The notes under the pieces were generated by a model that was given only the letters and a program-made list of their open reading frames with translations, was not told where the DNA came from and made no database searches. DNA of 23,747 nucleotides, taken from a virus. Positions 4,079 through 23,747 of the stretch are shown piece after piece (positions within the stretch are counted from its first letter, which is position 1; each line of letters opens with the position of its first letter). The DNA lies in IMG/VR virus record IMGVR_UViG_3300025674_000398, positions 1 to 23,747 of that record. One strand, given 5' to 3'. The position numbers were made by a program, and so were the translations under genes.

Positions 4079-4080
4079 AA

Positions 4081-7000
4081 TCAATACCCTTCAATCGTAA
4101 TAGAAGAAATATATTGACCTTGAGATAATTTAAATCTCAATAGAACTAGATATGGCGAATTTGCATTTGCGGTTGTTGCAGAACCAAGAGTTATGTAATA
4201 TGTGCCACCATTCGTACCAACAGTTTCACCAGGTTCATTTGAATCTCTAACACCCAAACTATTATTTGTAAATATTTGATCTCCGGGAAGTCCTGCCGCC
4301 CCATAATTTGTTAAACCTTCTAACCATCCGTTAGTTGAAATTGCAGATTGTTCTAAGGTATGCAATCCATCACCAGCGGTAGGAGCAGCAACAAAAAAGT
4401 CATCAAAAGATCCTGAAATAGTCATTTTAAATTTATTAATATTTTGTCTACAGAAACCAACAGTTAAATATTGTATTCCTGTAGTGGGTATGGTTGTTCT
4501 ATTTAAATTATTTGATAAACCTGGTAAATAACTTGTATAATCATTATTATCCCACTGGAATCTATCATCACCTGAATATGGAATTAAAACAACATCATAA
4601 TCATTTAACACAGTATTTTGAGAGTCCCATACATTATTATCATAAAAATTAGTTGAAGAATTATATGATGGAGTATCTGCGTTTGATGAAAATCCTGTCA
4701 TTCTTTTCAAGACCGTTCTTCCTGTTACTATAGTACCCCATCCGTTAGTATTCACAATTGCACCTAAATCATCTTCTTGTTGTGTAGGCGTAGACGCCCA
4801 ATACATAATATTTTTCAAAGAATTAGAATCCACAAAACTTCCTTGACCAATATGATTTTGTGAACTTATTTTTAATCCTCCATCAAAACCTTTACCGGTT
4901 GTTGATAGTGATACAACTGTAGGATTTATGTTAAAATCAGATTCTAATTGCAAAGGAGGTGTTAATCCTAAATCACTTAAAGATTTTGTCACCTGATCAC
5001 CTAGTATAGTAGATGTTCCTCTATTATCGATAATCAATGGATCCAATTCAGTATAAACTTTTGTTGTTAAATTATTTATTTTTATTCCACTTATAGTTAT
5101 TTCTGCACCTGTATTAATATAAGGCATTGATGAAGCATATCTCAGTGTTCCATTATTAGTTATCGATAAACTAAACAAATCCACACCAGAACCAATGGAA
5201 GGCAACGTTGTAGTTGGATCAACAACTAATTCTAAAATATCAGAATATGTTGTTACATCATTAGGAGAAGTTCCCGAAATGTGTTTTATTTTGTAAGTAT
5301 GATAACCCTCAGATGCTGACGTAACATATATTTTACATTTTATATATCGGTAAAACTTTTCAGGTATTATATTATTATCTGGAGAAGTAGAATCTGATGC
5401 ATCAATATCTTCATCCAACATTAAATCACCATAAGTTCCTACTTGTGATGTTATGTCTAAACTTGAAATTTGTCCATCAACAGTTGTATCTTGATGTATT
5501 AATTCAAGTGTACCTCCATTATTACCATCACCTAAAAACTTTCTAACATAATCAGATTGTAAAGATGTTTCAATTATACTACCAGTGACAACTTTTACTG
5601 TATCTCCTGGACTGAGAGATGAATCAGATGGTAAAATTGCAGAATTACATACCAACGCATTTCCACTATTCAATAATTCAAATGTAATTCCAGTATAATT
5701 ATCTGGAACGGAACTAACAGGTACAGTAGAAATTTCTATATAATCGGTTTTTATTTCTGTATCCGAATCTGTTCCTCCAGGATTTTGTGTATTTTCTGCA
5801 AATAATGTGATTTCATACGTGCCTACAGCATTAAATGTATGATTAGGATTTTGACTTGTATCAGTTTGAGTGTCGCCAAAATCCCATGACCATGTATCAA
5901 CGTTTTCTGATGTATCTAAAAATGATACCTGATTTCTATCATTACCTTCATAATCTGTAAAGATAAATCCTTTTCTAGAACTCTCTCCAGTATATGAAGT
6001 TGATAGAGTTGTAAATTGTCCTACAAAATTTGCTCTAGTATCTTTATAAATTGATATATCTTGATCAGTTGTAGAGAATGGCGCATTAGTATGATTTGAG
6101 CCATTGATTTCTAATGAAATTGTTTTTATTTCTGGATCAGAACCAGTTGTGTTTGACTGACGTTTAAAATGAATTTCCTGACTACTAAACGGATTGACAT
6201 TATAAATCTGTGTCGATAAATCATTGAATGAATCATATAAATCCCATTCAAATCTTGTGCCTAAATCTCCGTTAATTGAACCAGAACTTATCGTTACGCT
6301 TAAAGTTACTGGTAAACCCTCTAGACCTGATACATTGTTTACCGAATCTTCATTATCTCCCGCATTGGGTGTTGCGGTCCAGGTTACTAATCCAGTATAA
6401 TCACGATAAATATTCAAAATCAATGGAACTGATTCCGTATCTTTGACTGAATCTAATGGGCTAGTTTGATCATTATACAAATATAGATTTATTGTTTTCT
6501 GTATGTCTTCAGTAATACCTGTGAATGTATGATTGAAAGTTGTTGTTGCATTTGATTCCCAGGTAGATTCAATATCTGTTATGTCACTAGTACTCAAAAC
6601 GTCATTATCATTGAAAATACTTACATTTGAAGGATATGTTTCTCCGTCTCCTAAATCCATCGCCCAATGAGAATAATTTTGAGAATTGCTGATATCAAAT
6701 GAAATTTGTACACTATCCCCTAAATTACTCGAATCTTCATCCATATTTTCAGTGTTACCATTAGTGCCTGTTACGATGGTATTGTCTGATTGAATGTAAA
6801 AATAATCAAATGTAGGTATAGGTTTATCATTGAAAACTTCAATATAATCTGTTCTTTTAAATATTGAAAAACTTCCATGAGAATTTGTGTACTGTGCATC
6901 TGTTCTATATGCTTTCAGTGTGACGGAAAGTTTTACAACTGATAATTGGGATAATGCAGATGCAGTATAAGTATGTGTTATTGATGTTGATGTACTATTT

Positions 7001-10000
7001 ACTAATCCTGAACCATCTCCAAAATCCCATTGATATTCCATGTTCTCTTGATTTTGATATACCTCAGAATCTATTGTAAACTCGACCGTATCACCTGCAA
7101 CAATTTCCAATAAATCAGCTGAAAACTTTGCTGTTCTCACAAAAGTATTGTTATGAATGTTTAATAATGTTTCGTTTAATTTATCAAGTCCATCACTGAG
7201 AGTATCCTGTAAGTCTATACCTGCCAACACATCAAAACTTGTTTCAAATGTAGTGTTGCTTGTCAATAATGCACCATCACTGAAAGTTCCATCAGTAACA
7301 TTACCTATGATTAAACCACTACCAGAAGATTGTCCTAAACTTGCCGAAGAAACAGGTTCCCATGTACTTCCTGTCCAAACTAATGCGGAATCTTGTGGAA
7401 TATTTTGAGGTATTGTTGTGTCATTAAGTTCATATAAATTACTTACTCCATCAGTTCCTGAACTACCTGATGATCCTGCAGGACCAGTAGCACCATTTAA
7501 ATTTATAGACCAACTAGTGTATGTGCCTGAACCATCTACTAATATAGGATTTATAGTTAAAGAACCGCTATTTTTATTATAATTTGTAACTAATCCTATA
7601 ATTCTATTATCAGCATCATGTGCTATTATAACTTCTTGACCAATTGAATATGATAATCCAGTTCCTATTAAGAATGTTAAATTACTACCGGTACCAATTG
7701 TATTAGAAGTTGAAGATGTCGAAGCATATATGTCACCAGTATATCCTGAACTTCCTGAAGTGCCCGTACTTCCTGAGGTACCTGAACTACCTGAAGAACC
7801 TGAAGTTCCTGAAGTTCCTGAAGTTCCTGTTTGTCCAGATGTTCCAGATGTACCTGAACTACCTGAAGAGCCTGAAGTTCCTGAAGTTCCTGAAGTTCCT
7901 GATGTACCTGAACTTCCTGAAGAACCTGAAGTTCCTGAAGTTCCTGTTTGTCCAGAAGTTCCGGAAGATCCAGAAGTTCCAGAAGATCCAGATGTGCCCG
8001 AAGAACCTGATGATCCTGATGATCCTGATGTACCATCTGACCCCGATGTGCCTGATGACCCCGCAGATCCAGATGTACCTGCAGAACCTGCACTAGCATC
8101 TCGACCAGATGTACCAGACGATCCAGCGCTTCCTGAAGTTCCTGAAGATCCAGCACTACCTGCAGAACCTGCACTACCAGAACTTCCAGATGATCCTGCA
8201 CTACCAGAACTTCCAGCAGATCCTGCACTACCAGAACTACCAGCACTACCAGCAGATCCTGCACTACCAGAACTACCAGCACTACCAGCAGATCCTGCAC
8301 TACCAGCAGATCCTGCACTACCAGAACTACCAGAAGATCCAGAACTAGCATATGTTAGACCAGAAGATCCAGACGTTCCTGATGAACCTGCTGATCCTGA
8401 ACTACCTGATGATCCAGATGTGCCTGTTGAACCTGATGTGCCTGAAGATCCTGAACTTCCAGAACTTCCTGCTGATCCTGAACTTCCAGAACTTCCTGCT
8501 GATCCTGAACTTCCAGAACTTCCTGCAGAACCTGCACTACCTGATGATCCTGCAGAACCTGCACTACCTGATGATCCTGCAGAACCTGCACTACCTGATG
8601 ATCCTGCAGAACCTGCACTACCTGCGGTACCAGATGAACCAGATGTTCCAGCATCAGGTATTATAGAAATTGATATGAAAACATCAGTACCATCAATCTG
8701 ATTTGACCAGTTTATGTCAGAAATATAATTAACATCTAATGTTCTATAATTTCCATTGTCTGTTTGAGAAGTGACAAAATAATTTGCGACCCAAGAAGCG
8801 TCATATGTTGATCTTATAGCGATTATCGATTTACTTGCTGATGAAGAATCTGTTAGTGCATCAAAAGTAACAGAATTATTTCCTCCATCTTTACTAATTT
8901 CATGAATGTAAATTTCATCTACTAATGAAGGATCAGAATTATTTAATCTAAAAGTTCCTGATGGTATCGATATGTCAGTTGTTGTAGTTGAATATTGATA
9001 GAAAACACCAAATGAAGGAAATCCAGATGTACCTGATGATCCAGAACTACCGGTTGTGCCAGATGATCCAGATGATCCAGATGTACCTGTTGATCCTGAA
9101 GTTCCAGAACTACCAGCACTACCTGAAGATCCAGCACTACCAGCACTACCAGCACTACCTGCTGAACCTGCTGATCCGGCACTACCAGAACTACCAGCAC
9201 TGCCTGAAGATCCAGCACTACCAGAACTACCAGCACTACCAGCACTACCAGCACTACCAGCACTACCAGCACTACCTGCGGAACCTGCTGATCCGGCACT
9301 ACCTGCACTACCTGCAGATCCAGCACTACCTGCACTACCAGCACTACCTGCGGAACCTGCAGATCCAGCGCTACCTGCACTACCTGCGGAACCTGCAGAT
9401 CCAGCGCTACCTGCTGATCCGGCACTACCTGCACTACCTGCAGATCCAGCACTACCAGCACTACCAGCACTACCTGCTGAACCTGCTGATCCGGCACTAC
9501 CTGCTGATCCTGCTGAACCTGAAGAACCTGACGTGCCAGATGATGCATCGCCAAATGTTACAGTTGCATAACCTGCTTGACTATTTCCAAAACCCCAATC
9601 TACTTCGATTCTATTTTGATTTGTAAATTTAACTACATTTGGAAATATTTGGAAAAAATTCAAATCAGAAAATACAACATTAACTGGTCTTCCAATATTC
9701 AAATTATGATTGATCTGCCAATATCTACTTGATAAACTTTGAAAATGTATGTAAGTTCCACCATCTCTACCAGAAGTACCTGAACTACCTGCTGATCCGG
9801 CACTACCTGCACTACCTGCAGATCCAGCACTACCTGCACTACCAGCACTACCTGCTGAACCTGCTGATCCAGCACTACCTGCACTACCAGCACTACCTGC
9901 TGATCCAGCACTACCTGCTGAACCTGCTGATCCGGCACTACCTGCACTACCAGCACTACCTGCTGATCCAGCACTACCTGCAGATCCTGCACTACCTGCA

Positions 10001-13000
10001 CTACCAGCACTACCTGCACTACCAGCACTACCTGCTGAACCTGAACTTCCTGCTGATCCGGCACTACCTGCACTACCAGCACTACCTGCTGAACCAGATG
10101 TACCTGAGGAAATTTGTTGAATTGTTATTGCTTTTGAACTACCGGGACTATTTTCATTATAATAATATAAAAAATCAGGAGATTCGAAAGGAACATCATA
10201 TGCAATATACGCCCCAGGTGTTCCATGTACGCCTATTCTTTCTATGCCAAATTCTACTTCACTGTCCCCTTCAGCGGTCCATTCAGGATTGTGAATACCT
10301 TCATAAAATGTCGATATATTAAATTCTGTACCTAAATTTGATGGATCACTAACATCAAATTTGTATTTAAATCCTCTATAGAGAATAAATTCTCTTAATG
10401 GAATATCATTAAAAGTAAAAACACCTTCACCACCAGCATCATAGTTAACAGTAACATAGTGTATGTAAGCATAAGGCGATTGACCTGAAGTACCTGCAGA
10501 GCCTGAAGATCCTGCACTAGCATCTCTACCTGAAGAACCAGAAGATCCTGTTAATCCTGAAGTACCGTCTAAACCGGATGAACCAGATGTTCCCGTTGAA
10601 CCTGAAGTGCCAGAAGTTCCTGAAGATCCGGATGTTCCCGATGATCCAGATGATCCAGAACTACCTGAACTACCTGATGATCCGGCACTACCTGATGATC
10701 CGGCACTACCTGATGATCCGGCACTGCCAGAACTACCTGAACTACCGGCACTACCTGCACTACCTGCTGATCCAGAACTTCCGGCACTACCCGCACTACC
10801 TGCGGAACCCGCACTACCAGCACTGCCTGATGATCCAGATGAACCTTGAGAACCTGGAAGTCCTTGTGCGCCTGCTAAATTTACTGTCCAATACGAAAAT
10901 GTATTTTCTAATTCTAAATTATTTCCATCTTCCAATAAAACATCATAAATACCTACCGAATCTTCTAAAATTAAATCATTTTGATTTTCTAAAATCAGTT
11001 TTTCATCAAAATCTCCAATTATTAAATTGAAAACTTCATCATCATAAACAAAATCATTTTCATCTCTTCTATCATTTAATTGTAAATTAAAATTATCAGT
11101 TTTACTAAAAAGTGGATCTACAACTAAAACACCAGTATTTTGATCATATGAAACAACAGATCCTTCAATATAAACGTCATTCGAATGTGAAACTATAATT
11201 TTGTGTCTAGGAACATATTTTACTTCTTTTTCTTCTAGAACAAAAGTTTTAAAATTCAAATCATTTAATGATACTGTTGAATAAGATTCACTAAAGAATA
11301 TATCACCACTTTTTCCTGCACTACCTGAAGAACCTGTAGTACCATCTCTACCTGAAGATCCGGATGTTCCTGTTGAACCTGAGGTACCAGATGAACCAGT
11401 TGATCCAGAAGTACCAGAAGAACCTGCACTAGCATCTCTACCTGAAGAACCTGATGATCCAGATGTTCCTGTTGAACCAGACGTTCCTGTTGAACCTGAT
11501 GTTCCAGAACTACCTGATGATCCAGAACTACCTGCACTACCTGAACTTCCAGATGATCCTGAACTACCTGAACTACCTGCACTACCTGAACTTCCAGATG
11601 ATCCTGAACTACCTGAACTACCTGCACTACCTGAACTTCCAGATGATCCTGAACTGCCCGCACTACCTGCAGAACCAGATGACCCAGATGTTCCTGTTGA
11701 ACCTGAAGTTCCTGAACTTCCTGAAGATCCATCATCACCTTTTTCACCTTTATCACCAGTTCTAGCAAATGTTAAAACACACGCTTCACCATTTACAAAA
11801 GGACTTACTTGAGAATATTCTACTAATGATATACCTAATTCAGCATATTGTAAATTTGTGTAATTAGTTAAACTACCAGTTATGGCAAAAAGAATGAAAT
11901 CGGATTCTTTATTTCTTTTTGTTATTTTTAAATGACCTTTGATAGTGCTTGTAGAATCATCTATAGTTTTTAAGAAACTTTCTAAATTTATATAACTGCT
12001 ATCAAAATGTCTTATATAAATTCTTTGAGATCCACTTTGAACAAAGTTATTTAATCTAAACAAACCATAAGATAATGAATTTGTAAATGGCGTTAATGTA
12101 CTGTCAAAATCAAATTCAAAACCAGCACCACCAAAATTACCATCAACTCCCGATGAACCTGAACTTGCATAAGTTAATCCAGATGAACCAGATGTTCCAG
12201 AAGACCCAGCACTACCTGCACTACCTGCTGATCCAGCACTACCTGCACTACCTGAACTACCTGATGATCCGGCACTACCTGATGATCCGGCACTACCTGA
12301 TGATCCGGCACTACCTGCTGATCCGGCACTGCCAGAACTACCTGATGATCCGGCACTACCTGATGATCCGGCACTACCTGCACTACCTGAACTACCTGCT
12401 GATCCGGCACTACCTGATGATCCAGCACTACCTGCTGATCCAGCACTACCTGCTGATCCAGCACTACCTGAACTACCTGATGATCCGGCACTACCTGCAG
12501 ATCCTGACGAACCGGCACTACCTGCTGATCCAGAACTTGCATATGTCAGACCAGAAGAACCTGAAGTACCAGAACTTCCTGAAGATCCACTTTCATTACT
12601 ACCACCATAAGTTAAATGTGCATATCCTGTTTGTACAGATGAGAAATAAACCTTTACAATATTATCTGATACAAATTGTATTGCTTCAGTTTCGATCTTA
12701 TTATAATTTAAGTCGGTAATTAAAACTTGTAATGGACGTGTATTAAAACCATGAATCAGAGTCCAAACATTGGATGGAGTAGTAATTGTTTTTACAGTTG
12801 TACTGCCATCTCTACCAGAAGTTCCAGATGATCCTACTGATCCAGAAGATCCGGAACTAGCATAAGTTAGACCAGAAGAACCAGAAGTTCCTGTTGAACC
12901 TGAAGTACCAGAACTTCCTGATGATCCAGATGTGCCTGTTGATCCTGAAGTTCCGGATGATGCTTCTCCAAATGTCAATACTGCATATCCATCTTGTGCA

Positions 13001-16000
13001 TCAGGGAATGTTATAACTGCAGTATCGACTGTTGTAAATGTGATGTCTTCTACTAATATTAGATTATAATTTCTATCAGTGATTACAATATTTACAGGTC
13101 TAGTATTTAAATTATGATTTATTGTCCATGTTGTTGATGCTACTGCTTGATCATGAATATAAGAGCCACCATCTCTACCAGAAGTTCCAGATGAACCAGA
13201 TGTTCCAGATGTACCAGAAGAACCTGCACTACCGGCCGATCCAGCACTGCCTGCTGATCCAGATGATCCAGCACTACCTGCTGATCCAGATGATCCAGCA
13301 CTACCTGCTGATCCAGAACTACCAGATGATCCTGAACTTGCATAAGTGAGTCCAGAAGAGCCTGAAGTACCTGCTGATCCAGAACTAGCATAAGTTAAAC
13401 CTGAAGATCCTGAAGTACCAGATGATCCTGAACTTCCTGCACTACCTGCACTACCTGCAGAACCAGATGATCCTGAACTTCCTGCAGAACCAGAACTACC
13501 TGCACTACCTGCACTACCTGCACTACCTGCAGAACCAGATGATCCGGATGTTCCTGTTGAACCTGAAGTTCCAGAAGAACCTACAGAACCAGATGATCCA
13601 GATGTTCCAGCAGAACCTCCAGAGCCAGAAGTACCAGAACTTCCTGCTGATCCTGAACTACCAACACTTCCTGATGATCCAGAAGTTCCAGAAGAACCTG
13701 CACTAGCATCTCTACCTGAAGATCCTGAAGTTCCGGAAGTACCAGATGATCCTGAACTTCCTGCAGAACCAGAACTACCTGCAGAACCAGAAGTTCCAGA
13801 AGATCCAGCACTAGCATCTCTACCTGAAGATCCAGATGATCCAGATGTTCCTGTTGAACCTGATGTGCCTGAAGAACCTGATGTTCCAGAACTACCTGCA
13901 GAACCAGAAGTTCCAGAAGATCCAGCACTAGCATCTCTACCTGAAGATCCAGATGATCCAGATGTTCCTGTTGAACCTGATGTTCCTGTTGAACCTGATG
14001 TTCCAGAACTACCTGCAGAACCAGAAGTTCCAGAAGATCCAGCACTAGCATCTCTACCTGAAGATCCAGATGATCCAGATGTTCCTGTTGAACCAGACGT
14101 TCCTGTTGAACCTGATGTGCCTGAAGATCCTGCACTACCTGATGATCCAGAAGATCCAGCACTTCCTGCACTTCCTGCACTACCTGCACTTCCCGCTGAA
14201 CCACTTTTACCAGTGGATCCAGAAATACCTGATGACCCAGATGTACCGGAAGAACCTGAACTACCTGCCGATCCAGCGGATCCGGCACTACCAGCACTAC
14301 CTGCTGATCCTGCACTACCTGCTGAACCTGCACTACCTGCCGATCCAGCGGATCCGGCACTACCAGCACTACCTGCTGATCCTGCACTACCTGCTGAACC
14401 TGCACTACCTGCTGAACCTGCACTACCTGCTGAACCTGCACTACCTGCCGATCCAGCGGATCCGGCACTACCAGCACTACCTGCTGAACCTGAACTTCCT
14501 GCTGATCCGGCACTACCTGCTGAACCTGAACTTCCTGCTGATCCTGAACTTGCATAAGTGAGTCCAGAAGAACCCGATGTACCAGTAGAACCAGATGTTC
14601 CTGACGAACCTGCACTACCTGCACTTCCTGAACTGCCAGCAGAACCTGCTGATCCAGAACTACCTGCACTACCTGCACTTCCTGAACTACCAGCACTACC
14701 TGATGACCCTGCTGATCCAGAACTACCAGCACTTCCTGATGATCCTGCTGATCCAGAACTACCAGCACTTCCTGCTGACCCTGCTGATCCAGAACTACCG
14801 GAAGAACCTGCTGACCCTGCTGATCCAGAACTACCAGCACTTCCTGCTGACCCTGCTGATCCAGAACTACCAGCACTTCCTGCTGACCCTGCTGATCCAG
14901 CACTACCGGAAGAACCTGCTGACCCTGCTGATCCAGAACTACCGGAAGAACCTGCTGACCCTGCTGATCCAGAACTACCTGCACTTCCAGATGATCCAGA
15001 ACTACCTGCACTTCCAGATGATCCAGAACTACCTGAACTACCTGCACTACCTGAACTACCTGCACTTCCAGATGATCCAGAACTACCTGCACTTCCAGAT
15101 GATCCAGAACTACCTGAACTACCTGAACTACCTGCACTACCTGCACTTCCAGATGATCCAGAACTACCTGCACTACCTGCGGAACCCGCACTACCAGAAC
15201 TTCCAGATGATCCAGCACTACCTGCACTTCCAGATGATCCGGCACTTCCAGATGATCCAGAACTACCTGCACTACCTGCGGAACCCGCACTACCAGAACT
15301 TCCAGATGATCCAGCACTACCTGCACTTCCAGATGATCCGGCACTTCCAGATGATCCAGCACTACCTGCACTTCCTGAAGATCCAGATGATCCTGAAGAA
15401 CCAGATGATCCAGCACTACCTGCACTTCCTGAAGAACCAGATGATCCAGCACTACCTGCACTTCCTGAAGAACCAGATGATCCAGCACTACCTGCACTTC
15501 CTGAAGAACCAGATGATCCAGAGGATCCTGCACTAGCATCTCTACCTGATGATCCAGAAGAACCGGATGTTCCAGAAGAACCTACACTTCCCGAAGAACC
15601 AGAAGGTCCTTGATTTCCATTTAAATTTATCGACCAATCCGAATATGTTCCAGAGCCTTTATAATTTAAAACTTTATAATTTAGAACACCGAATGAACCA
15701 ACATATGATACAACTTCACCTATAATTTTATTCGAATTATCATGGACTATTAATAATTCTTGTCCTTGAGTATAAGCTAAACCTGTACCAATGGTAATTG
15801 TCTTATAACCGCCCAATGATGATGGAATGGTAATACTAGTAGAAGATGAACTAGAATAACGATCACCATCTACTCCAGATGTTCCTGCAGATCCAGAAGT
15901 TCCCGTTGAACCAGAAGTACCAGATGACCCAGAACTTCCTGTACTACCAGATGATCCCGCAGAACCTGCACTACCAGCACTACCAGAGGAACCAGCACTA

Positions 16001-18234
16001 CCAGAGGAACCAGCACTACCTGCTGATCCGGCACTACCTGAAGAACCTGAAGAACCTGAAGAACCAGAAGTTCCATAACTTCCTGAGCTTCCAGATGTTC
16101 CGGAAGAACCCGAACTTCCTGAACTTCCTGAAGAACCTGAAGTTCCGGAAGTTCCAGAAGAACCATCATCACCCTTATCACCTGTTCTTGCAAAAGTTAA
16201 TACTAAATCATCACCTGAATTAAAAGGTAAATTTCCATTAGTTGATGAAGATTCAACTACTGTTACATCGATGTCATGAGTTGTATGTGTAGGTAAGTAA
16301 TCTGCGCCATTAATAACAAATAATACAAAAATCTCATTTTGAAATTTTTTGCTAATTTTTACATGACCTTTTATTATGCTAGAAGAATTCGCTATTACAT
16401 TTAAGAATGCATGTAAATCGGTATTATTTGCATCACTATCGCTAATTGTTATATTTGTTAAAGAAGAAAGTGCGGTATCATCAACTGTAAATTCTCCTGT
16501 GCTTGGAGAACTATTTGTCGAATATGAGTATTCGAAAGATGCCCCACCAAAATTTCCATCTCTACCTGATGTTCCAGATGTACCAGAACTACCTGATGTT
16601 CCAGATGTACCAGAAGAACCTGCACTGGCATCTCTACCAGACGATCCTGATGACCCAGATGTTCCTGTTGATCCGGATGTACCAGAAGATCCTGCACTGC
16701 CTGATGATCCAGAAGTACCTGCACTACCTGTTGATCCTGATGTTCCTGAAGATCCTGCACTGCCTGATGTTCCTGAAGATCCTGCACTGCCCGATGATCC
16801 TGATGTTCCTGAAGATCCTGCACTGCCCGATGATCCTGATGTTCCTGAAGATCCTGAACTACCTGCTAAACCGGATGTTCCTGATGATCCTGAACTACCT
16901 GTTAAACCAGATGTTCCTGATGATCCTGATGTTCCTGATGATCCTGATGTTCCTGATGATCCGACACTGCCTGACGTTCCTGACGATCCTGATAAACCAT
17001 CAATGCCTGACGTTCCTGACGATCCTGATAAACCATCAATGCCTGACGTTCCTGACGATCCTGATGAACCGGAAGTTCCTGCACTAGCATCTCTACCTGA
17101 AGTTCCCGAAGTGCCTGCGGATCCAGAGGATCCTGATGTTAAAGGACTAATTTGATCAAGAATGTTTGATCTTAAAATCACTGAACCACTAGATTGACCT
17201 TCTTCTAAGTAAAATCCATCATCTGTGTTAATGGTTATATGATCAACTTTAGAAACTGTATTACCGGATATTTGCGATTCGGTAATTTCTAGAGGAGGAG
17301 ATGCTTCTCCAAATTCCAATGTTCCATTTGCGGTTACTCTAAGAACATCGCCTTCTATACCTAATCCAGTCTCATTAACCTCTTTAATTTCAGTAACAGA
17401 AAATATTTTATCACCATTAGTATCTCGTATTGTAAAATCATTTCCAGAAGAACTATGAAATCCTAAAACAGCATTTTGAGTACCTACACCAATCTTTAAC
17501 GATTGAGTATCTCCAATTGTTATGGATCTATTTACAATAAGATTTTTATCATCACTAATTGATAATATTTCAGGATCAAAAGATATTATAATTGAAGTTG
17601 TATTTTGTGCGGCAAGTAGTCCATTACCAGTTTTTATTGATTTAAATTGTAAAATACTTTCACTGGTATTGTACTCTGTATTAGAGTACAATTGAACTGT
17701 ATTAGAAGTGACATTTAAATTATTACCGAATACTCTTTTTTCAGGATCACTACCTCCACCTCCATAATATTCGCCCCAACCAGTTATAACTTTCTGCGCA
17801 GTTGATGCTGCTTGAGAACCAATATCTTTAACAACTTTTTTAAGGGTTTCAATCTCATCTCTTAAAGGTTGAATTTGTGCGTCTTCACCTTTAGGTCCTT
17901 GTGGTCCTTGCGGCCCCAAAAGTCCTCTAGGACCCATCGGACCTTCAGGACCTTGTAATCCTTGAGGTCCCATTTTACCAGGATCACCTTTTTCTCCTTT
18001 ATCTCCTTTAGGTCCCGGTAAACCTTCTAAACCCTGCTCCCCTCTCTCGCCTCTAGGTCCTTGTTCACCTTTTATTTCTAGGACCTTAATCTTTTCACCA
18101 GTTACTGGATCTAAGATTTCTCTAATTTCTTTTATTAACTCTTGCTTTGCTCTTTTTAATTCTTTTTGAGTATAGGCTAGAGAGGCAGCTAAAACTTCAT
18201 TTAGTTTTACCTGTTTATTGTTTTCATTTGACAT
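4081..18234 (-). CDS. Giant modular collagen-like/Gly-Ser repeat virion protein with PKD domains (4717 residues)
   Basis: ATG 18234 lies four bases after the portal stop; no Shine-Dalgarno is seen (GATTAATTAA precedes it), so coupling to the portal gene is likely. Approximate residues: 1-55 alpha-helical, coiled-coil-like; 56-118 collagen Gly-X-Y, 21 unbroken triplets; 168-365 beta-rich unique region; then Gly-Ser tracts separated by folded domains. These are type A at 560-689, 2029-2169 and 3070-3195; type B (ends WSINLNG or WTVNLAG) at 787-877, 2307-2464 and 3500-3589; type C ([18 protein letters not shown]) at 1688-1760, 1809-1882 and 2822-2897; and a cupredoxin-like domain at 2584-2712. 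A linker domain (about 3596-3709, [13 protein letters not shown]) precedes PKD-like domains (3709-4182, [19 protein letters not shown]) and a unique C-terminus. Roughly 45% of residues are Gly-Ser tracts. No protease or enzymatic motif is seen. A very long fibre, adhesin or whisker is the best guess. The unbroken 14 kb frame argues that it is real, but tract lengths may carry assembly error. Confidence 0.9.
5690..7110 (-). other. PKD-like domain block of the giant protein
   Basis: Residues about 3709-4182. Two copies carry clear PKD signatures: [10 protein letters not shown] followed by THTYTASA, and [11 protein letters not shown] followed by [15 protein letters not shown] third is recognisable ([11 protein letters not shown] followed by FNHTFTGI), and a fourth is degenerate ([11 protein letters not shown]). 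PKD domains are extended beta sandwiches used in surface and phage structural proteins for spacing or carbohydrate contact. Confidence 0.8.
7738..8649 (-). repeat. Gly-Ser/Thr tract 10 of the giant protein
   Basis: About 304 residues. Its N-terminal part is GSA/GSS-rich and its C-terminal part GTS/GSS/GQT-rich, with one GLTYASSG and one GRDASAG cassette. Confidence 0.88.
9026..9544 (-). repeat. Gly-Ser-Ala tract 9 of the giant protein
   Basis: About 172 residues, mainly GSA triplets, turning to GST and GTS near the third type A domain. Confidence 0.85.
9771..10099 (-). repeat. Gly-Ser-Ala tract 8 of the giant protein
   Basis: About 109 residues, almost only GSA triplets, placed between the cupredoxin-like domain and the third type C domain. 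Confidence 0.85.
10100..10485 (-). other. Cupredoxin-like domain of the giant protein, copper ligands absent
   Basis: Residues about 2584-2712 include [17 protein letters not shown], then [15 protein letters not shown] and [11 protein letters not shown]. The order resembles the plastocyanin-type beta sandwich seen in some marine phage virion proteins. The usual Cys/His/Met copper loop is replaced by [12 protein letters not shown], so a structural role is more likely than electron transfer. The assignment is by pattern only. Confidence 0.5.
10486..10844 (-). repeat. Gly-Ser tract 7 of the giant protein
   Basis: About 119 residues between a type B domain and the cupredoxin-like domain, entered through [10 protein letters not shown], with one GRDASAG near the end. 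Confidence 0.85.
11317..11728 (-). repeat. Gly-Ser tract 6 of the giant protein
   Basis: About 137 residues. It contains a 45-bp exact array (starts at 11543, 11588 and 11633) and one GRDASAG cassette. It begins with the charged exit [10 protein letters not shown] of the type A domain. Confidence 0.85.
12150..12590 (-). repeat. Gly-Ser tract 5 of the giant protein
   Basis: About 146 residues of GSA and GSS triplets bounded at both ends by GLTYASSG cassettes, lying between a type C and a type A domain. Confidence 0.85.
12813..12954 (-). repeat. Gly-Ser tract 4 of the giant protein
   Basis: A short tract of about 48 residues between the first two type C domains, with one GLTYASSG cassette. 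Confidence 0.8.
13769..14119. repeat. 117-bp higher-order repeat, three copies
   Basis: The block starting CCAGAACTACCTGCAGAACC occurs at 13769, 13886 and 14003, a constant 117-base step (39 residues). Each copy encodes a GRDASAG cassette with flanking GTS and GST triplets. The copies are nearly identical, differing at a few bases (for example in the last 20 bases of each unit). Confidence 0.85.
14267..14410. repeat. 72-bp exact tandem repeat, two copies plus a displaced start
   Basis: Bases 14267-14338 are identical to 14339-14410. The start of the unit recurs at 14447, offset by 108 (72 plus 36), which suggests expansion by unequal exchange in steps of 36 bases. Confidence 0.88.
15410..15517. 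repeat. 36-bp exact tandem repeat, three copies
   Basis: The unit beginning CCAGCACTACCTGCACTTCC starts at 15410, 15446 and 15482 with a period of 36 bases, and encodes 12 residues of the GSSGSAG type on the minus strand. Confidence 0.88.
15876..16166 (-). repeat. Gly-Ser tract 2 of the giant protein
   Basis: About 97 residues of Gly-X-Y-spaced GSS, GTS and GSA triplets. It starts after the type A domain's exit sequence GDKGDDG and ends at the first type B domain. Confidence 0.85.
16566..17140 (-). repeat. Gly-Ser/Thr tract 1 of the giant protein
   Basis: About 190 residues of GSS, GTS, GSA and GST triplets with two GRDASAG cassettes and IDGLSG units. An exact 36-bp tandem repeat lies at 16969-17004 and 17005-17040. 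Confidence 0.9.
16969..17040. repeat. 36-bp exact tandem repeat, two copies plus a partial third
   Basis: Bases 16969-17004 are repeated at 17005-17040, and the first half of the unit recurs from 17041. It encodes a 12-residue [12 protein letters not shown] unit on the minus strand. Confidence 0.9.
17881..18069 (-). other. Canonical collagen-like segment of the giant protein
   Basis: Residues 56-118 are 21 consecutive Gly-X-Y triplets rich in Pro, Lys, Glu and Arg, from [12 protein letters not shown] to GPQGPKGED. Several KGD, KGE and RGE charged pairs that stabilise bacterial and phage collagen-like trimers are present. The segment follows a helical stretch ([18 protein letters not shown]) that could act as a coiled-coil trimerisation element. 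Confidence 0.9.
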
Positions 18235-18238
18235 TTAA

Positions 18239-19915
18239 TTAATCGTCTAAATTTATAGTAGAGAGAATATCATTAATTGTGTTTTTCAATTTTTCATCAT
18301 TTTTTGTCGAATCAAATTTATCTTGAATTAATTTTTCAATTTTTTCTTCATTTAAAAAATCTGTTTTTTCATGACTTACAGAGTTTGTTTCCATTCCCAT
18401 TTTCATATCATCTTCACCAGAAAATCTAGGATCATCTAATTCTTTTGCTATTTGCTCATCATTTGTTCTAATATCATCATCACTCATCAATAAAATATTT
18501 CTTCTGATAAATTCATTTGAATAGTATTTTCCAGCATACTCAGATAAATCTCGTAAAAGATTTAAACGATCTTGTAATAATTCATTTCTTTTCATTTCTG
18601 TGAAATGACTATCGCTTTCAAAATGATAATAAATTTGATTTTTTATTTTTTTCCAGTCATCTCTGTTCATTACACCTTTTAAACTCAATTGTCTTTCCAA
18701 CAAATCATCAAAAAGTAATGTAAATCTATTCTGTAATCTATTAATAAACCTAGTAAATTTTACTTCATCTCTAGAAATTTCTGTCGCTCTACCTATAGTA
18801 TAAGAAGCTTCAGATTCCAGTCTAGATAGTGGTACACCTAATGCTTTATATAATTTTTTCTGAAAATAAATCACATCTTCAATATCACCTAAATTTTGTC
18901 CTCCTGGTAATGTTGTAACTTCAGTTCCCCTACCTCCTTCCATTCTAGGCATCCAATAATCCTCAAGCATGGACATATGTTTTCTATCATCACGAATTTC
19001 ACCTGTATTTGCATCATATACTAATTTATTCTTATATCTTGCCATTAGATCACGCATATACTGTTCTGCTCTAACTTTGGGAAGATTCCCGACATCAACA
19101 TAAAAAATTCTTCTTTCGGGAGCTCTAGATATACGATAAATGACCAATGAATCTTCAATCATTCTTAACATATTTAAAGGTTTGATAGCTTTATGTAAAA
19201 ATGATAAAACTAATGATTTTGTGGAGTTTAATAACCCGGAATGACAATATACTATTGAATCAATAGAAATTTTTAAACCTGAAGCCGCATTTGTGAATGC
19301 TGTACCTATGGTTTGACCTTGTGCCTGATAAATTCCTTTTTCATTATAAACATAGTATTCTTGTATTTGTTTTTGAGAAGAACCGTTTGGAAGTTTTATG
19401 GTTTGATTTTCTCTAATTTTTTTAATTTTGCGAGGATCTAATAATCTTAATTCAAAAATACCTTTTTTAGGATTTTTATCATCTATAATAACATGATAAT
19501 AAATTCTCCCATCAATATACCATCTTCTAAAAAGATCATATCCTAAATTTTGAAAATCAAGAAGTTTTGTCAACTCTTTGAATTCAATTTTTATTTTTTC
19601 TTTAATATTATCAGATAAATTTAAATTATCTAATTTTATATCAACTATTGGTTTATCTTTTACTGAAATAATTGCTTCATTAATGATATCATCTATAGCA
19701 TTTTCAACTTCTGCCTGTAATGACATATCTCTATAACGATTGATTAATTCCGTTTCACTTTTTATAGCGCCTTCGGTATCAATGTATGTACCATAGACAC
19801 CACCAGATGCAACCGTCACGGAACCATCATCATTTTCAACTTCAGCAAATGATTTAACTTTTACTTCATCTTTTTGTTTTTTTCCAATAGTAAAACCAAA
19901 TATATCAATAGCCAT
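18239..19915 (-). CDS. 20: Portal vertex protein (gp20-like), 558 residues
   Basis: I choose ATG 19915 (MAIDIFGFTIGKKQKD) over the TTG six codons upstream because AGGAA (19925-19921) sits five bases before it. The stop is TAA at 18241-18239. The portal forms the dodecameric ring at the unique head vertex through which DNA is packaged and to which the neck and tail attach. Signature stretches of T4-type gp20 are visible: YRDMSLQAEVENAIDDIINE near residue 60-80, RRWYIDGRIYYHVIIDD, ELRLLDPRKIKKIRE, then ISRAPERRIFYVDVGNLP, VYDANTGEIRDDRKHMSMLE, YWMPRMEGGRGTEVTTLPGG and LGVPLSRLE. The length is close to T4 gp20 (524 residues). The C-terminal tail is charged and helical (SHEKTDFLNEEKIEKLIQDK). It lies after the tube gene as in T4, but is followed by the giant fibre-like gene instead of head assembly genes. 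Confidence 0.97.
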   Translation of the reverse strand: MAIDIFGFTIGKKQKDEVKVKSFAEVENDDGSVTVASGGVYGTYIDTEGAIKSETELINRYRDMSLQAEVENAIDDIINEAIISVKDKPIVDIKLDNLNLSDNIKEKIKIEFKELTKLLDFQNLGYDLFRRWYIDGRIYYHVIIDDKNPKKGIFELRLLDPRKIKKIRENQTIKLPNGSSQKQIQEYYVYNEKGIYQAQGQTIGTAFTNAASGLKISIDSIVYCHSGLLNSTKSLVLSFLHKAIKPLNMLRMIEDSLVIYRISRAPERRIFYVDVGNLPKVRAEQYMRDLMARYKNKLVYDANTGEIRDDRKHMSMLEDYWMPRMEGGRGTEVTTLPGGQNLGDIEDVIYFQKKLYKALGVPLSRLESEASYTIGRATEISRDEVKFTRFINRLQNRFTLLFDDLLERQLSLKGVMNRDDWKKIKNQIYYHFESDSHFTEMKRNELLQDRLNLLRDLSEYAGKYYSNEFIRRNILLMSDDDIRTNDEQIAKELDDPRFSGEDDMKMGMETNSVSHEKTDFLNEEKIEKLIQDKFDSTKNDEKLKNTINDILSTINLDD

Positions 19916-19928
19916 GTTTATTCCTGAA

Positions 19929-19970
19929 TGCAAGTGAATAAAATATTACTGTTTTATTTATTCACTTGCA
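19929..19970 (-). promoter_or_regulatory. Long inverted repeat just upstream of the portal ribosome site
   Basis: Left arm 19929-19942 and right arm 19957-19970 are perfectly complementary over 14 bases, with a 14-base loop. On the minus-strand transcript the stem ends three bases before the AGGAA of the portal gene. It is not followed by a T run, so it does not look like an intrinsic terminator. It could limit read-through or position ribosomes, or mark an RNA processing site between tube and portal messages. Confidence 0.65.
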
Positions 19971-19998
19971 AAATCAGAAAAAAATAATATTAATATTA

Positions 19999-20604
19999 TT
20001 AAAGACCACCTACATCTTGTTGCGCAGGACCGGTTTTAGTTGTTGCTGTAGGACCATTGCCTCCTTCAGCGGTCCAATAATCGTATGCGAAAGTAACTGT
20101 AAATTCCTCAATCGAATCATTATCTCCCCAATCAAGAGTTATTTCGCTTATATCAATAGGAAACATTCCATGAAATAGATAAGATCTCAATATATTAGCA
20201 TCATCACCATCAGCAGCCTTTGATATTTGATTAACAGTTACACTATCAATCACATAATCATTAACCCCACCATTTCCAGTTCTATAATTTCCTGTATGTG
20301 TATTTATACCCTCCATCCAAAACTCAAATTCCGATCTGTAAGAAAAATTCTCATCATTTATCACAGTAATAGTCCAATCAGCAAAAGTTCTATTTCCTGC
20401 TAATTTTATTTCTCTACCCATGTATGGAACTACAACAGTTCCTATGGTAGAACCAGGAATAGATGCAGCTTTGCATAAAAATTTAAGATCACCGTCGGAT
20501 TCATTGAACCATTGATTTTTTTTAGGAATTATAACTTCAAATAAATTAGGTCTCGCTCCATCCCATGCCAATTTTTCTCTAAAAGTAGAAACATTGAAAG
20601 CCAT
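19999..20604 (-). CDS. 19: Tail tube protein (gp19-like), 201 residues
   Basis: ATG 20604 is preceded by AGGAGA at 20618-20613, eight bases away. The product starts MAFNVSTFREKLAWDGARPN and is followed by LFEVIIPKKNQWF, CKAASIPGSTIGTVVVPYMG and REIKLAGNRTFADWTITVIN, a pattern shared by T4-type tail tube subunits (tube ring beta-barrel with the conserved 'SIPGST' and 'ADWTITVIND' strands). The C-terminal part has ITLDWGDNDSIEEFTVTFAY, the usual last strands, then a Pro/Thr/Gly-rich tail. It is a little longer than T4 gp19 (163 residues). Hexamers stack to form the rigid inner tube of the contractile tail. It lies 15 bases after the sheath gene in the same operon; the tube and sheath start sites have similar strong AGGAGA sequences, which fits the need for many copies of both. 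Confidence 0.96.
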   Translation of the reverse strand: MAFNVSTFREKLAWDGARPNLFEVIIPKKNQWFNESDGDLKFLCKAASIPGSTIGTVVVPYMGREIKLAGNRTFADWTITVINDENFSYRSEFEFWMEGINTHTGNYRTGNGGVNDYVIDSVTVNQISKAADGDDANILRSYLFHGMFPIDISEITLDWGDNDSIEEFTVTFAYDYWTAEGGNGPTATTKTGPAQQDVGGL

Positions 20605-20619
20605 TTTTTAATTCTCCTA

Positions 20620-22956
20620 TTAAATTGCGTTTATTACTTCGTTAAATTCTACTCCTGTTGCAACAGCAACAAAATTCAAATTAATAAAGTTAATTGATCT
20701 ACTGGGTTTTATAAAAATATCTCCCCTAAATTCATTTCTGTCTACAACATTAGGAGGATTATTTGTTGCATCACAAACAACTTTATAATCTGTAATACCC
20801 CTTCTAGATTTTACTTCACGTAGAAACGGCTCAACTAAACTAACAAAACTTGCTCTTGTAAAAGCATCATTAAATTCAAATAATGAAAATTGTGCAGCAT
20901 TAGCGATTGCTTTTTCTAAAATGATGAATAATCTTCTCACATTAATCCTATCAAATGCGGAAGGCCTTGCCAACAATGTTTTATCGCCAAATAGTATAGT
21001 ACCGCCTCCTGGCAATGAAATAACAGGATTTATTCCATTAGCATACAACAAATCTCTATCAGCATTGTTGGGATTAAATGCCAATTTTGTCACATTTTTT
21101 ACATTACCTCTATTAAAACCTGCAGGAGATACATATGGATTAATTGTATCAGCCTGGGCACATATTCCAGCAATATCACCATTTAAAGGTACATATCTGA
21201 AAACTCCAGAAAATCTATCGAACATATATTTGTAGTTGCCGTCCATGACCGCATAACTAGAACTTGGTAAATTTTTTCTTCTTGCTACAATATTAGCTGT
21301 TTCCTGACCAGTGGTAGCAAAATCTTCATATCTTGGCGAAACAAAAGCCACACAATCTTTTCTAAACTCACAAATTTCGTTAATTATATACACTGATATC
21401 TCGTCCTGAATTTGACCTGTTACAATTAATGATATATCAACATCTTCTGGATTTCTAAACATATTGTAAGCATTCATGATTTCTCCAGATCCAATTACAT
21501 CATTGCCGTCTACTCCTCCACCTAAACTTTCTGAGACGGTTCCTTGTGCAAAATTTGTAACTGAAGAATTATGAAAACCATTAAACGGTAGAGTTGTAGA
21601 GTTTTGTAAAGTCGTGCCCCAATCCAAAGATAATGTAACACCATCAATGGATCTTTCATCTCCGATATTATCGTGACCTCCAAACCATACCCAAGCAGAT
21701 TTATTACTTATCACATCAGGATAATAAATTGAAGTTCCATCTGTTGTAGATAGTGCATTTTTCGCTACTGATAAATTAGGGTATCTTTCTAAAACCGACA
21801 CACTGGTTTTTGTTGTCCCTCTACCTCTTCTATCTGGAATTCCTGTTATATCTCCATCTTCGTCAACAACAATTACATGTATTTCATCTAATGTATCTTT
21901 ATTACCAGTTGTCTTTAAAGCAAAGGCAGAAGTTAAAGGTGGATTGTCAAAATTTGATCTATATTCCCACTCTCTAGAATATGTTGAAGAACTAACTAGA
22001 CGATCAACAGGTTCTGATAATGTTAGTGCCAAATCGCTTTCAATAGAATCTACTCTTCTTCTAACACTTTGATTTGTACTATCAGTAAATGTCAAAATAT
22101 CTCCGACATTTAATTGATATCTGAAAAATGTATATGATCCGGTAACAACTTTAGATCCTGCCGGAATATCCAGTGTTCCAAACATGTTATCAGAACTTTC
22201 CTCAAAAGCAGATCTAGAGTGTCTTATAACTGTATTTCCTGCATCGACAGAAGATGCTCCAAATAAATTTATTGTTTGATTACCAGAAACAGTAGTATCA
22301 TATCTTACAGCATCAAAAGATGTTGTATTTGCTACAGATGTAACAATACCTTTTGTACCGTTAAAAATTTCTACAACATCACCTACACAAAGTTGTGAAC
22401 TAACACTAGATTGTGAACCGGTAAAAGTGTTTGAATTTTGTTGTGCCGAAAAGGTTCCTGTCAATTCAATTTGTACATTTGCAGAAAGAGTCACAGTACC
22501 TTCAGCAGTCGCTGTGGTATTTGCTCTATCAGGCAAACACATACTTGTTCTTAAAGAATCTCCCAATTGTCCTGGATATTTCGCAATAAAATTTCTATTA
22601 CTACCGACTAAACCATTCGGATAATTTAATTCATAATCTTTAACATTTTTGATTAAAAATCCATTACCATTTGTTGATGAATTTAATGATACTGTTGTGT
22701 TACTTGCTCTGACAACTTTTAAATTATTTGAATAAGATAAAAAAGAACTACATGTTAAAAAAGAATCATAGGTATTCAAATCGGATTTACCGAATTTCAT
22801 TTTCAAATCATCGGAATCGACAACGGAAACAATTTCTTCTACTGGACCCCATTTAAAAAGACCAGCATGTGCTCCTACTGACGTAGAAGGAATTGGAACT
22901 CTGGTAGTCAAATCTATTTCTGCAACTGACACACCTGGACTAACCATAAAAGCCAT
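20620..22956 (-). CDS. 18: Tail sheath protein (gp18-like), 778 residues
   Basis: ATG 22956 has AGGAGA (22966-22961) four bases upstream. The product starts MAFMVSPGVSVAEIDLTTRV and has the conserved GAHAGLFKWGPVEEIV. The C-terminal part carries the usual contractile sheath core: NVRRLFIILEKAIANAAQFS, LFEFNDAFTRASFVSLVEPF, LREVKSRRGITDYKVVCD, then a strand INFINLNFVAVATGVEF. Other blocks such as CVAFVSPRYEDF and AVMDGNYKYMFDRFSGVFRY are typical of marine T4-like sheath proteins. It is longer than T4 gp18 (659 residues). The extra length probably lies in the central surface domains (about residues 130-340), which vary between phages. Sheath subunits contract to drive the tube through the host envelope. 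Two promoter-like elements lie in the 100 bases upstream. Confidence 0.97.
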   Translation of the reverse strand: MAFMVSPGVSVAEIDLTTRVPIPSTSVGAHAGLFKWGPVEEIVSVVDSDDLKMKFGKSDLNTYDSFLTCSSFLSYSNNLKVVRASNTTVSLNSSTNGNGFLIKNVKDYELNYPNGLVGSNRNFIAKYPGQLGDSLRTSMCLPDRANTTATAEGTVTLSANVQIELTGTFSAQQNSNTFTGSQSSVSSQLCVGDVVEIFNGTKGIVTSVANTTSFDAVRYDTTVSGNQTINLFGASSVDAGNTVIRHSRSAFEESSDNMFGTLDIPAGSKVVTGSYTFFRYQLNVGDILTFTDSTNQSVRRRVDSIESDLALTLSEPVDRLVSSSTYSREWEYRSNFDNPPLTSAFALKTTGNKDTLDEIHVIVVDEDGDITGIPDRRGRGTTKTSVSVLERYPNLSVAKNALSTTDGTSIYYPDVISNKSAWVWFGGHDNIGDERSIDGVTLSLDWGTTLQNSTTLPFNGFHNSSVTNFAQGTVSESLGGGVDGNDVIGSGEIMNAYNMFRNPEDVDISLIVTGQIQDEISVYIINEICEFRKDCVAFVSPRYEDFATTGQETANIVARRKNLPSSSYAVMDGNYKYMFDRFSGVFRYVPLNGDIAGICAQADTINPYVSPAGFNRGNVKNVTKLAFNPNNADRDLLYANGINPVISLPGGGTILFGDKTLLARPSAFDRINVRRLFIILEKAIANAAQFSLFEFNDAFTRASFVSLVEPFLREVKSRRGITDYKVVCDATNNPPNVVDRNEFRGDIFIKPSRSINFINLNFVAVATGVEFNEVINAI

Positions 22957-22995
22957 ACTTTCTCCTAGTATATATTGTTAAATGCTAACTGAATA

Positions 22996-23003
22996 TATTT
23001 ATG
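22996..23003 (-). promoter_or_regulatory. 18: Candidate late promoter for the sheath gene (CATAAATA)
   Basis: The minus strand reads CATAAATA from 23003 to 22996, matching the NATAAATA form of the T4-type late -10 element. It would start transcription near 22990 and leave a leader of about 35 bases before the sheath ATG, with AGGAGA inside it. Confidence 0.55.
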
Positions 23004-23029
23004 AAAATATCATTTTTAAAATGGTCATT

Positions 23030-23037
23030 TATTTATC
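23030..23037 (-). promoter_or_regulatory. Second candidate late promoter upstream of the sheath gene (GATAAATA)
   Basis: The minus strand reads GATAAATA from 23037 to 23030. It is a weaker candidate than the nearer CATAAATA because it differs from TATAAATA at the first base and lies further away, but it could act as a second start. Confidence 0.35.
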
Positions 23038-23041
23038 TTAA

Positions 23042-23049
23042 TATAAATA
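23042..23049 (+). promoter_or_regulatory. Exact T4 late promoter element (TATAAATA) before the HNH gene
   Basis: TATAAATA is exact at 23042-23049, seven bases before the HNH ATG at 23057. If used as a -10 element the message would start at or within a base or two of the start codon, so the gene would be nearly leaderless. No Shine-Dalgarno sequence precedes the ATG. Confidence 0.45.
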
Positions 23050-23056
23050 TTTTATT

Positions 23057-23479
23057 ATGAAAAATAACGTTAAAAAAAGGTTTGAAAAAAAAGTCATTAA
23101 AACCGATGATTGTCACTTTTGGGTTGCGAGTAAAACTAAACAAGGTTATGGAATGTTTTCATATAACGGTAAATCAATTCCAGCACACAGAGTTTCTTAT
23201 ATGTTATATGTAGGAGATATTTCTTCAAATTTAATTGTTCACCAAACATGTAATAATACATACTGCGTGAATCCAAAACATTTAGTATTAAAAATGAAAA
23301 GTGATGTTAGAAAAGATTTTTACAACATTAGAATAAACAATGAAATGATATTTAAAGAATCAATTAAATATTTGGAGAAAATAAAAAAAATTAGACCTGA
23401 TATTAAAAAAGATGTAGAGGAAATTATAGAAAAAATAAAAAAATCCGATAACGTTTTACATATTACATTAGATGATTAA
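23057..23479 (+). CDS. Free-standing HNH endonuclease (HNH_3 type), 140 residues
   Basis: This is the only gene on the plus strand with good coding support. Residues 1-80 carry the HNH_3-type core: residues 19-22 CHFW, then GYGMFSYNGKSIPAHRVSY, then VHQTCNNTYCVNPKHL at 61-76, containing the His62, Cys65/Cys70 and His75 metal and catalytic positions. The remaining 60 residues are Lys/Ile/Glu-rich, predicted helical, and could be a DNA-binding or accessory segment (EKIKKIRPDIKKDVEEIIEK). Such genes are typically homing endonucleases that cut a phage lacking the gene and so spread their locus. It sits between the terminase and sheath genes, in the opposite direction, its last four bases (23476-23479) overlapping the terminase stop. 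Expression could come from the TATAAATA at 23042-23049; no ribosome site is visible. Confidence 0.9.
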   Translation: MKNNVKKRFEKKVIKTDDCHFWVASKTKQGYGMFSYNGKSIPAHRVSYMLYVGDISSNLIVHQTCNNTYCVNPKHLVLKMKSDVRKDFYNIRINNEMIFKESIKYLEKIKKIRPDIKKDVEEIIEKIKKSDNVLHITLDD

Positions 23480-23747
23480 AAATTATCCCCATATGAAAAT
23501 TCTTTTTCAATCACCCAATCCTGTCCACCCATTCTGACTGTTTTTTGTTCATATGAACCTAAACCATCTTCTATGAATCCAAAAGGCATTAAATTTGCTT
23601 CTGCCTCTAATAACTGTTCTTCAAATAATTTTTCACGTAAATCTAAATCTGTTATTTCAGTAAAATATTTTTGATTTACTAACCAACCAAATAAAAACAA
23701 CGTTGTGACTAAATCATCATGATAACCCTCATCTGCTTCATAACTTT
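23476..23747 (-). CDS. 17: Large terminase subunit (gp17-like), C-terminal fragment
   Basis: The frame is open to the right edge, so the 5' part is outside the window. The visible 89 codons read SYEADEGYHDDLVTTLFLFG, then WLVNQKYFTEITDLDLREKL, then a charged tail including MPFGFIEDGLGSYEQKTVRM. The HDDLV stretch followed by LFLFGWL fits the end of the RNase H-like nuclease domain of T4-type gp17, where one of the catalytic acidic residues (Asp542 in T4) lies in a similar D-rich motif; that match is from memory. The internal TTG that could be read as a start at 23700 is not a real start because the upstream codons continue the gp17 homology. Terminase pumps DNA into the prohead through the portal and cuts it at the end of packaging. 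It lies upstream of the sheath gene as in T4, with the HNH gene between. Confidence 0.92.
   Translation of the reverse strand, partial: SYEADEGYHDDLVTTLFLFGWLVNQKYFTEITDLDLREKLFEEQLLEAEANLMPFGFIEDGLGSYEQKTVRMGGQDWVIEKEFSYGDNF

Follow-up and report, generated by a model that had tools for sequence, protein, structure and literature searches.

The closest described counterparts of the fibre reported here are the collagen-like tail fibres EPclA and EPclB of E. coli O157:H7, modular phage proteins in which a trimeric coiled coil lies beside one short collagen (Col) domain and for which a trimeric state has been proven (PMC3368898). Long Gly-X-Y sequences without hydroxyproline are also found in the streptococcal and bacillar proteins Scl1, Scl2 and BclA, and these carry Pro at the X position (about 31% in Gram-positives), Thr at the Y position (48%) and charged residues (PMC8968730). 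The known triple helices that lack hydroxyproline depend on proline and charge (PMC7824840, PMC8968730), and in human collagens regions of at least three triplets without proline are scarce (PMC13138384). A further group of Gly-rich proteins, represented by the snow flea antifreeze protein and the adhesin gp38 of Salmonella phage S16, consists of GGX-rich bundles of short helices (PMC11869133, PMC13243192). Sequences with one Gly in three (GXX) belong to the three-chain class and GGX sequences to the bundle class (PMC13243192), and in the C1q stem polyproline-II (PPII) chains with a reduced twist are present (PMC11869133). Our search of the literature, which took in only a minority of subscription papers, retrieved nothing relevant on phage collagen tracts devoid of proline or on the repeat strings described below.

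The window, i.e. the whole stretch of 23,747 bases that was analysed, belongs to an uncultured bacterial T4-like phage. Its genes for the tail sheath (20620-22956), the tail tube (19999-20604) and a T4-like portal (18239-19933) lie on the minus strand, directly ahead of a giant fibre gene on the same strand (4081-18234) that specifies 4,717 residues. The closest annotated portals are those of cyanophages, with about 51-54% identity. The tail sheath is enlarged (778 aa), and an internal stretch of it, around residues 256-329, matches a tail-fibre PHROG. The giant fibre matches Pfam Collagen (PF01391) with 865.8 bits and has PHROG tail-fibre matches, the best profiles being phrog_5073, phrog_6320 and phrog_8745; these matches follow the Gly spacing and therefore show the kind of protein rather than orthology. 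Like EPclA and EPclB, it combines PF01391-type Gly-X-Y repeats with an adjoining coiled coil and modular domains in a phage context. However, whereas the EPcl proteins have one short Col domain, the giant fibre has a long proline-free candidate shaft divided into many segments. The PfN (PF08400) and PfC (PF06820) domains of EPcl-type prophage fibres were not detected in the giant fibre, for which Pfam gave only Collagen and PKD_4.

Two further fibre genes follow on the minus strand. The second fibre (1526-4084, 852 aa) has a 104-triplet proline-free tract (2246-3181) and an A domain (1889-2245). It is separated by two small genes from the third fibre (3-683), which is truncated at the window end and contains tracts, an A domain (159-527) and one GLTYASSG motif (63-86). 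The C-terminal end of the second fibre is ..DELVSRKKAITYGLIF (1526-1600). Similar ends are present in the fibres of eight related loci (L019, L020, L021, L022, L028, L030, L032 and L064), and in at least one of these (L028) the end closes the portal-adjacent fibre. This shared end suggests that fibre ends may have been swapped. Open reading frames on the opposite strand (e.g. 7730-8701 and 14558-15613) were rejected as genes, being Pro-rich shadows of the GGN repeats. The region 14813-23747 is independently confirmed by near-identical contigs (98-99.9%), while 4081-14813 rests on a single assembly, and the exact tract lengths in that region are thus less sure.

The giant fibre, all parts of which are given here in minus-strand order, starts with an N-terminal segment that is conserved in the family (aa 1-55, 18070-18234). 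This is followed by a collagen stub (aa 56-118, 17881-18069) and, directly after it, by a heptad coiled coil (aa 119-149, 17788-17880). Ten Ser/Gly/Ala/Thr tracts, with 2,220 residues in total (7735-17133), then alternate with beta-type domains. Tract 1 (aa 368-564, 16543-17133), with two GRDASAG motifs, precedes A domain 1 (aa 566-684, 16183-16539), and tract 2 (aa 685-790, 15865-16182), which opens with GDKGDD, precedes B domain 1 (aa 793-872, 15619-15858). Within tract 3 (aa 873-1690, 13165-15618) lies the longest stretch without proline, 108 triplets (14557-15528); this tract is followed by C domain 1 (aa 1692-1760, 12955-13161), tract 4 (aa 1756-1810, 12805-12969), C domain 2 (aa 1813-1882, 12589-12798), tract 5 (aa 1877-2032, 12139-12606) and A domain 2 (aa 2041-2159, 11758-12114). 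Next are tract 6 (aa 2163-2310, 11305-11748), B domain 2 with an insertion (aa 2313-2454, 10873-11298), tract 7 (aa 2455-2584, 10483-10872) and the D domain (aa 2587-2710, 10105-10476). Tract 8 (aa 2711-2826, 9757-10104) and tract 9 (aa 2888-3076, 9007-9573), both consisting mostly of GSA, flank C domain 3 (aa 2828-2899, 9538-9753), and tract 10 (aa 3196-3500, 7735-8649) lies between the A-like domain E (aa 3074-3195, 8650-9015) and B domain 3 (aa 3503-3580, 7495-7728). The C-terminal region (aa 3592-4717, 4084-7461) contains PKD-type repeats, the best of which is located at about 5773-5928; the PKD_4 (PF18911) match scores 62.4 bits against a cut-off of 27, with its best part at aa 4103-4154. 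No relative of the last 468 residues was found in a search of viral contigs.

Successive Gly residues in the ten tracts are spaced by exactly 3 in 94.9% of cases, as compared to a mean of 14.8% and a maximum of 18.5% in 200 shuffled versions. The commonest triplets are GSA (269), GSS (248), GTS (108) and GST (24). Ser (551) and Thr (112) occupy most X positions, and Ser (364), Ala (271) and Thr (31) most Y positions; Ala is found only twice at X. Charge is low, and only two Pro residues are present, one of them at X and the other at Y. The view in the preliminary description that Gly falls at every third residue with hardly any proline is therefore borne out. Nearly all breaks of the register are due to two fixed motifs. 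GRDASAG, in which an Ala replaces Gly and the register is kept, is present in ten copies, the first at 17077-17097 and the others starting at 16618, 15526, 14038, 13921, 13804, 13696, 11422, 10510 and 8086. GLTYASSG, which shifts the register by one residue, is present in seven copies (14542-14565, 13378-13401, 13330-13353, 12850-12873, 12529-12552, 12157-12180 and 8338-8361). Both motifs are read from the minus strand. When isolated, four tracts were matched by Pfam Collagen with 67.5-168.3 bits, above the cut-off of 27.2 (e.g. 101.9 bits for tract 1 and 67.5 bits for tract 8), whereas shuffled versions of tracts 1 and 8 gave no match. Sequence matches of a tract to collagens in the PDB were set aside because they arise only through the Gly spacing. 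The Gly register is also kept in the 104 triplets of the second fibre and in the third fibre, outside the coordinates that had been covered by the preliminary description.

A portal-based scan yielded 80 loci, in most of which the portal is immediately followed by a Gly-X-Y fibre. In one relative (L245, L246 (G001:C1:20300-56200), L247) about 34 kb separates the portal from gp23; this interval contains fibres, several tandem fatty-acid desaturase-like genes, an acyl carrier protein, a type III PKS/KAS-like protein, TauD, 2OG-Fe(II) oxygenases and a radical SAM protein. The interval is only about 3 kb in a relative with 54% portal identity.

The Gly spacing is kept in about 69 related ORFs on about 60 T4-like contigs, and it equals 3 in 96.7% of cases across 211 unique tracts of the relatives (25,767 residues). 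The commonest exception in these unique tracts is again GLTYASSG, with 116 copies in 31 loci. This motif is nearly invariant in about 50 related loci, its first variable residue being L, W, I, M, H, K, F or Y, and a pattern scan for it in tracts matched mostly contigs of this phage family. In ungapped pairs of relatives, 99 silent changes and no replacements were counted at register Gly codons, as compared to 96 silent changes and 156 replacements (Ser/Thr/Ala swaps) at X and Y, where the pooled counts include pairs that are not mutually independent. In the independent, divergent pair L064/L028, the Gly codons show 50 silent changes and no replacement, and the X and Y codons 66 and 77, respectively (P = 4e-14). 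The lone apparent Gly replacement, in the pair L027/L030, sits out of register. Once the GLTYASSG copies are subtracted, the length differences between alleles of a tract are whole numbers of triplets (3n residues) in every group. In the register analysis across related phages that the preliminary description had proposed, loss of the register without selection did not occur.

These observations bear on the possibility that the tracts are disordered spacers of a flexible, Gly-Ser-rich bristle, which would have inherited their register only through 9-base DNA expansion units. The composition does resemble that of engineered GS linkers, tract lengths differ among close relatives, and tandem repeats of 9n bases are found throughout. 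Moreover, full extension of the 2,220 tract residues would give about 635 nm, far beyond the length of a T4 virion and improbably long for a rod; some compaction or bending is therefore likely, and extension may be limited to some of the tracts. However, the codon usage of the tracts does not differ from that elsewhere in the gene (Gly GGT/GGA, Ser TCA/TCT/AGT), and 101 distinct 9-mers are present among the 666 tract triplets. The tracts are thus not fresh slippage expansions, and slippage alone was rejected as the cause of the register in view of the mixed codons and the absence of Gly replacements. Further evidence against a bristle is the exclusion of Ala from X and the finding that an unrelated megaphage keeps the spacing almost without exception. 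Taken together, the absence of Gly replacements, the insertion and deletion of whole triplets and the non-slippage codons indicate that the register is held by selection at the protein level, which disfavours a plain flexible linker. We consider the bristle unlikely, and the purifying selection on Gly supports the initial view that the tracts are not simple flexible linkers.

The distribution of residues over X and Y is informative with respect to the type of order that may be involved. Among the relatives, Ala occurs 3,147 times at Y and 44 times at X, and Thr 1,141 times at X and 224 times at Y. This unequal placement implies that X and Y face different environments. The simplest arrangement that would require Gly at every third place and give unequal X and Y positions is one of three parallel PPII chains. 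The preliminary description had raised a polyglycine II-type bundle. In such a structure PPII helices would pack together, either inside a single chain or among several trimers. Gly at every third residue with small Ser, Ala and Thr neighbours would permit such packing, and bundles of this type exist in phage adhesins (PMC11869133, PMC13243192). As in the snow flea protein and S16 gp38, the latter also a phage adhesin, the sequence is Gly-rich and PPII-prone with small side chains. Yet the known bundles are Gly-Gly-X rich and consist of short helices and turns (PMC13243192, PMC11869133), whereas Gly makes up about 33% of the tract residues rather than two in three, GXX runs extend to 108 triplets without turns, and X is almost always Ser or Thr, which leaves a single Gly face. 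For these reasons a bundle seems improbable, and less likely than a three-chain helix.

It is also conceivable that the tracts form an O-glycosylated, mucin-like shaft, in which Ser or Thr at X would be a regular sugar site that stiffens the chain or stabilises a proline-free triple helix. This would fit with Ser or Thr at X in about 95% of the window triplets and with the exclusion of Ala from X, and collagen-like proteins are known to be glycosylated (PMC8968730). However, no PF00535 glycosyltransferase was found in 9 of the 10 related contigs searched, which are fragments, and the one match was in a distant relative. Furthermore, sugars alone leave the absolute conservation of Gly unexplained, and we regard this explanation as quite improbable. 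No prolyl-hydroxylase-like PF13640 was found in the related contigs.

Our preferred reading of a three-chain assembly draws on the start of the protein, which, as first described, is a canonical Gly-X-Y stub: it has 21 triplets with 11 Pro and many charged residues, and it is matched by Pfam Collagen on its own (45.4 bits). The 23 distinct stubs of the family each have 20 or 21 triplets, and Pro makes up 11% and charged residues about a third of their sequence. Over 21 distinct sequences of the family, large hydrophobic residues occupy 78% of the a and d positions of the coiled coil, as compared to 6% elsewhere. The order of stub and coiled coil resembles the layout of the proven trimeric phage collagen (PMC3368898), a likeness that is consistent with a trimer. 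The tracts themselves are classed as a variant rather than ordinary collagen because they lack the Pro-rich X and the Thr, Pro or charged Y positions that the stub has. Unlike Scl1, Scl2 and BclA, they have almost no Pro and little charge, and they carry Thr mainly at X and Ala at Y. Since Gram-positive collagens have their Thr at Y and their Pro at X (PMC8968730), the X/Y polarity is reversed here. The idea that the tracts are proline-free descendants of a collagen shaft is not substantiated: the stub with 11% Pro and the tracts with about 0% are sharply separated, and a comparison of the stubs and tracts of the family revealed no intermediates.

It had further been proposed that the chain re-enters the register through collagen-type triplets after A and B domains. 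This is the case after every A domain (aa 685, and GDK at aa 2160 just before tract 6) and every B domain in the window (GNQGPSG at aa 873, aa 2455 and GATGPAG at aa 3581). In the relatives, however, re-entry after an A domain is mostly a single capping triplet, with Asp or another polar or charged residue in 94% of first triplets and 19% of second triplets. The corresponding background in the tract interior is 1.1%, and no canonical triplets follow the C domains (2%). One charged or polar triplet is present near the tract end before A (88%) and C (97%) domains.

AlphaFold2 confidently predicted small beta folds for the A domain (beta-rich; pLDDT 95.2) and the C domain (pLDDT 94.2). Sequence searches for solved relatives of both domains gave nothing credible, and Foldseek gave no match at E <= 0.001. 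The best structure match of the A domain (Z 5.6) was rejected as no convincing relative, and that of the C domain, to P. aeruginosa 2w38/3h6j (Z 6.8), as too weak to claim homology; the next matches of the C domain were several phage fibre and tailspike chains near Z 4-5. The A domain was not found in annotated phages. C domains, which match phrog_21918 (C domain 1), are widespread in phages, including the gene adjoining the portal of Flavobacterium phage FL-1. Some of the PHROGs matching the C domain are head decoration or virion structural proteins, so the site of the fibre could be the tail or the head/neck.

On balance, we favour the view that the gene product is a probably homotrimeric virion fibre of very great length, in which the tracts form an extended three-chain, collagen-type PPII shaft with beta-domain beads. 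We infer that the fibre would be rod-like and have a role in host contact. In such a fibre, the N-terminal segment would serve as the anchor, and the 21-triplet stub and the coiled coil would gather three chains in register. The tracts would continue as an extended PPII assembly, either a triple helix of the collagen type or a variant with less twist, with Gly facing the shared axis at every third residue. The A, B and C domains, some of whose junctions have charged Gly-X-Y triplets, may be beads at which the chains are re-set and locked, GLTYASSG and GRDASAG may be register pins or hinges, and the C-terminal PKD-type region would carry the outer end. The one-residue shift at GLTYASSG breaks the continuity of a helix and counts against a continuous rod. 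Stability also counts against a triple helix because the tracts have almost no proline or charge and, in contrast to human collagens, reach 108 successive proline-free triplets. Additive host-guest rules would predict a very low stability for such tracts. Beads, interruptions and possible sugars may offset this low stability.

This type of tract is not confined to the family. The 735-kb uncultured megaphage LR756501 encodes a 2,816-residue fibre with 777 of 780 spacings equal to 3, GTS and GSS triplets, Thr at X and Y in a ratio of 568:65 and an embedded B-type domain related to B domain 3. The megaphage fibre differs from the giant fibre in that GTS dominates over GSA and GSS, GLTYASSG is absent and the phage is a very different one. 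In this megaphage (L120:2611-11061), fibres that lie next to each other contain hundreds of GTS/GSS triplets, together with the embedded B domain. This arrangement suggests that fibre modules may be exchanged between very different phages. A pattern scan of viral ORFs revealed at least 108 other ORFs of this tract type, and Thr occurs 8,340 times at X and 1,014 times at Y in 108 ORFs among the matches listed; the pattern was neutral between X and Y for Thr but barred Ala at X, so that the Thr figure alone is unbiased. Units such as GTSATSG, in which Ala replaces Gly with the register kept, recur in tracts of unrelated phages (loci L121-L240) and parallel GRDASAG. The tract type is a widespread variant of the already known phage collagen-like fibres. 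We tentatively raise the possibility that a three-chain PPII rod of Gly-[Ser/Thr]-[Ser/Ala] triplets, free of proline and low in charge, is in wide use among environmental phages; its X/Y polarity would be opposite to that of bacterial collagens, beads and perhaps sugars would stabilise it, and current stability rules would not allow it to fold.

Should the tracts not be ordered, the absolute conservation of Gly would call for another explanation. If they are ordered, they would show that large-scale triple helices, or structures closely akin to them, can do without proline, hydroxyproline or charge, contrary to the stability rules. Such tracts would then provide a simple repetitive sequence for materials work, and they would represent a common route to extremely long fibres in environmental phages.
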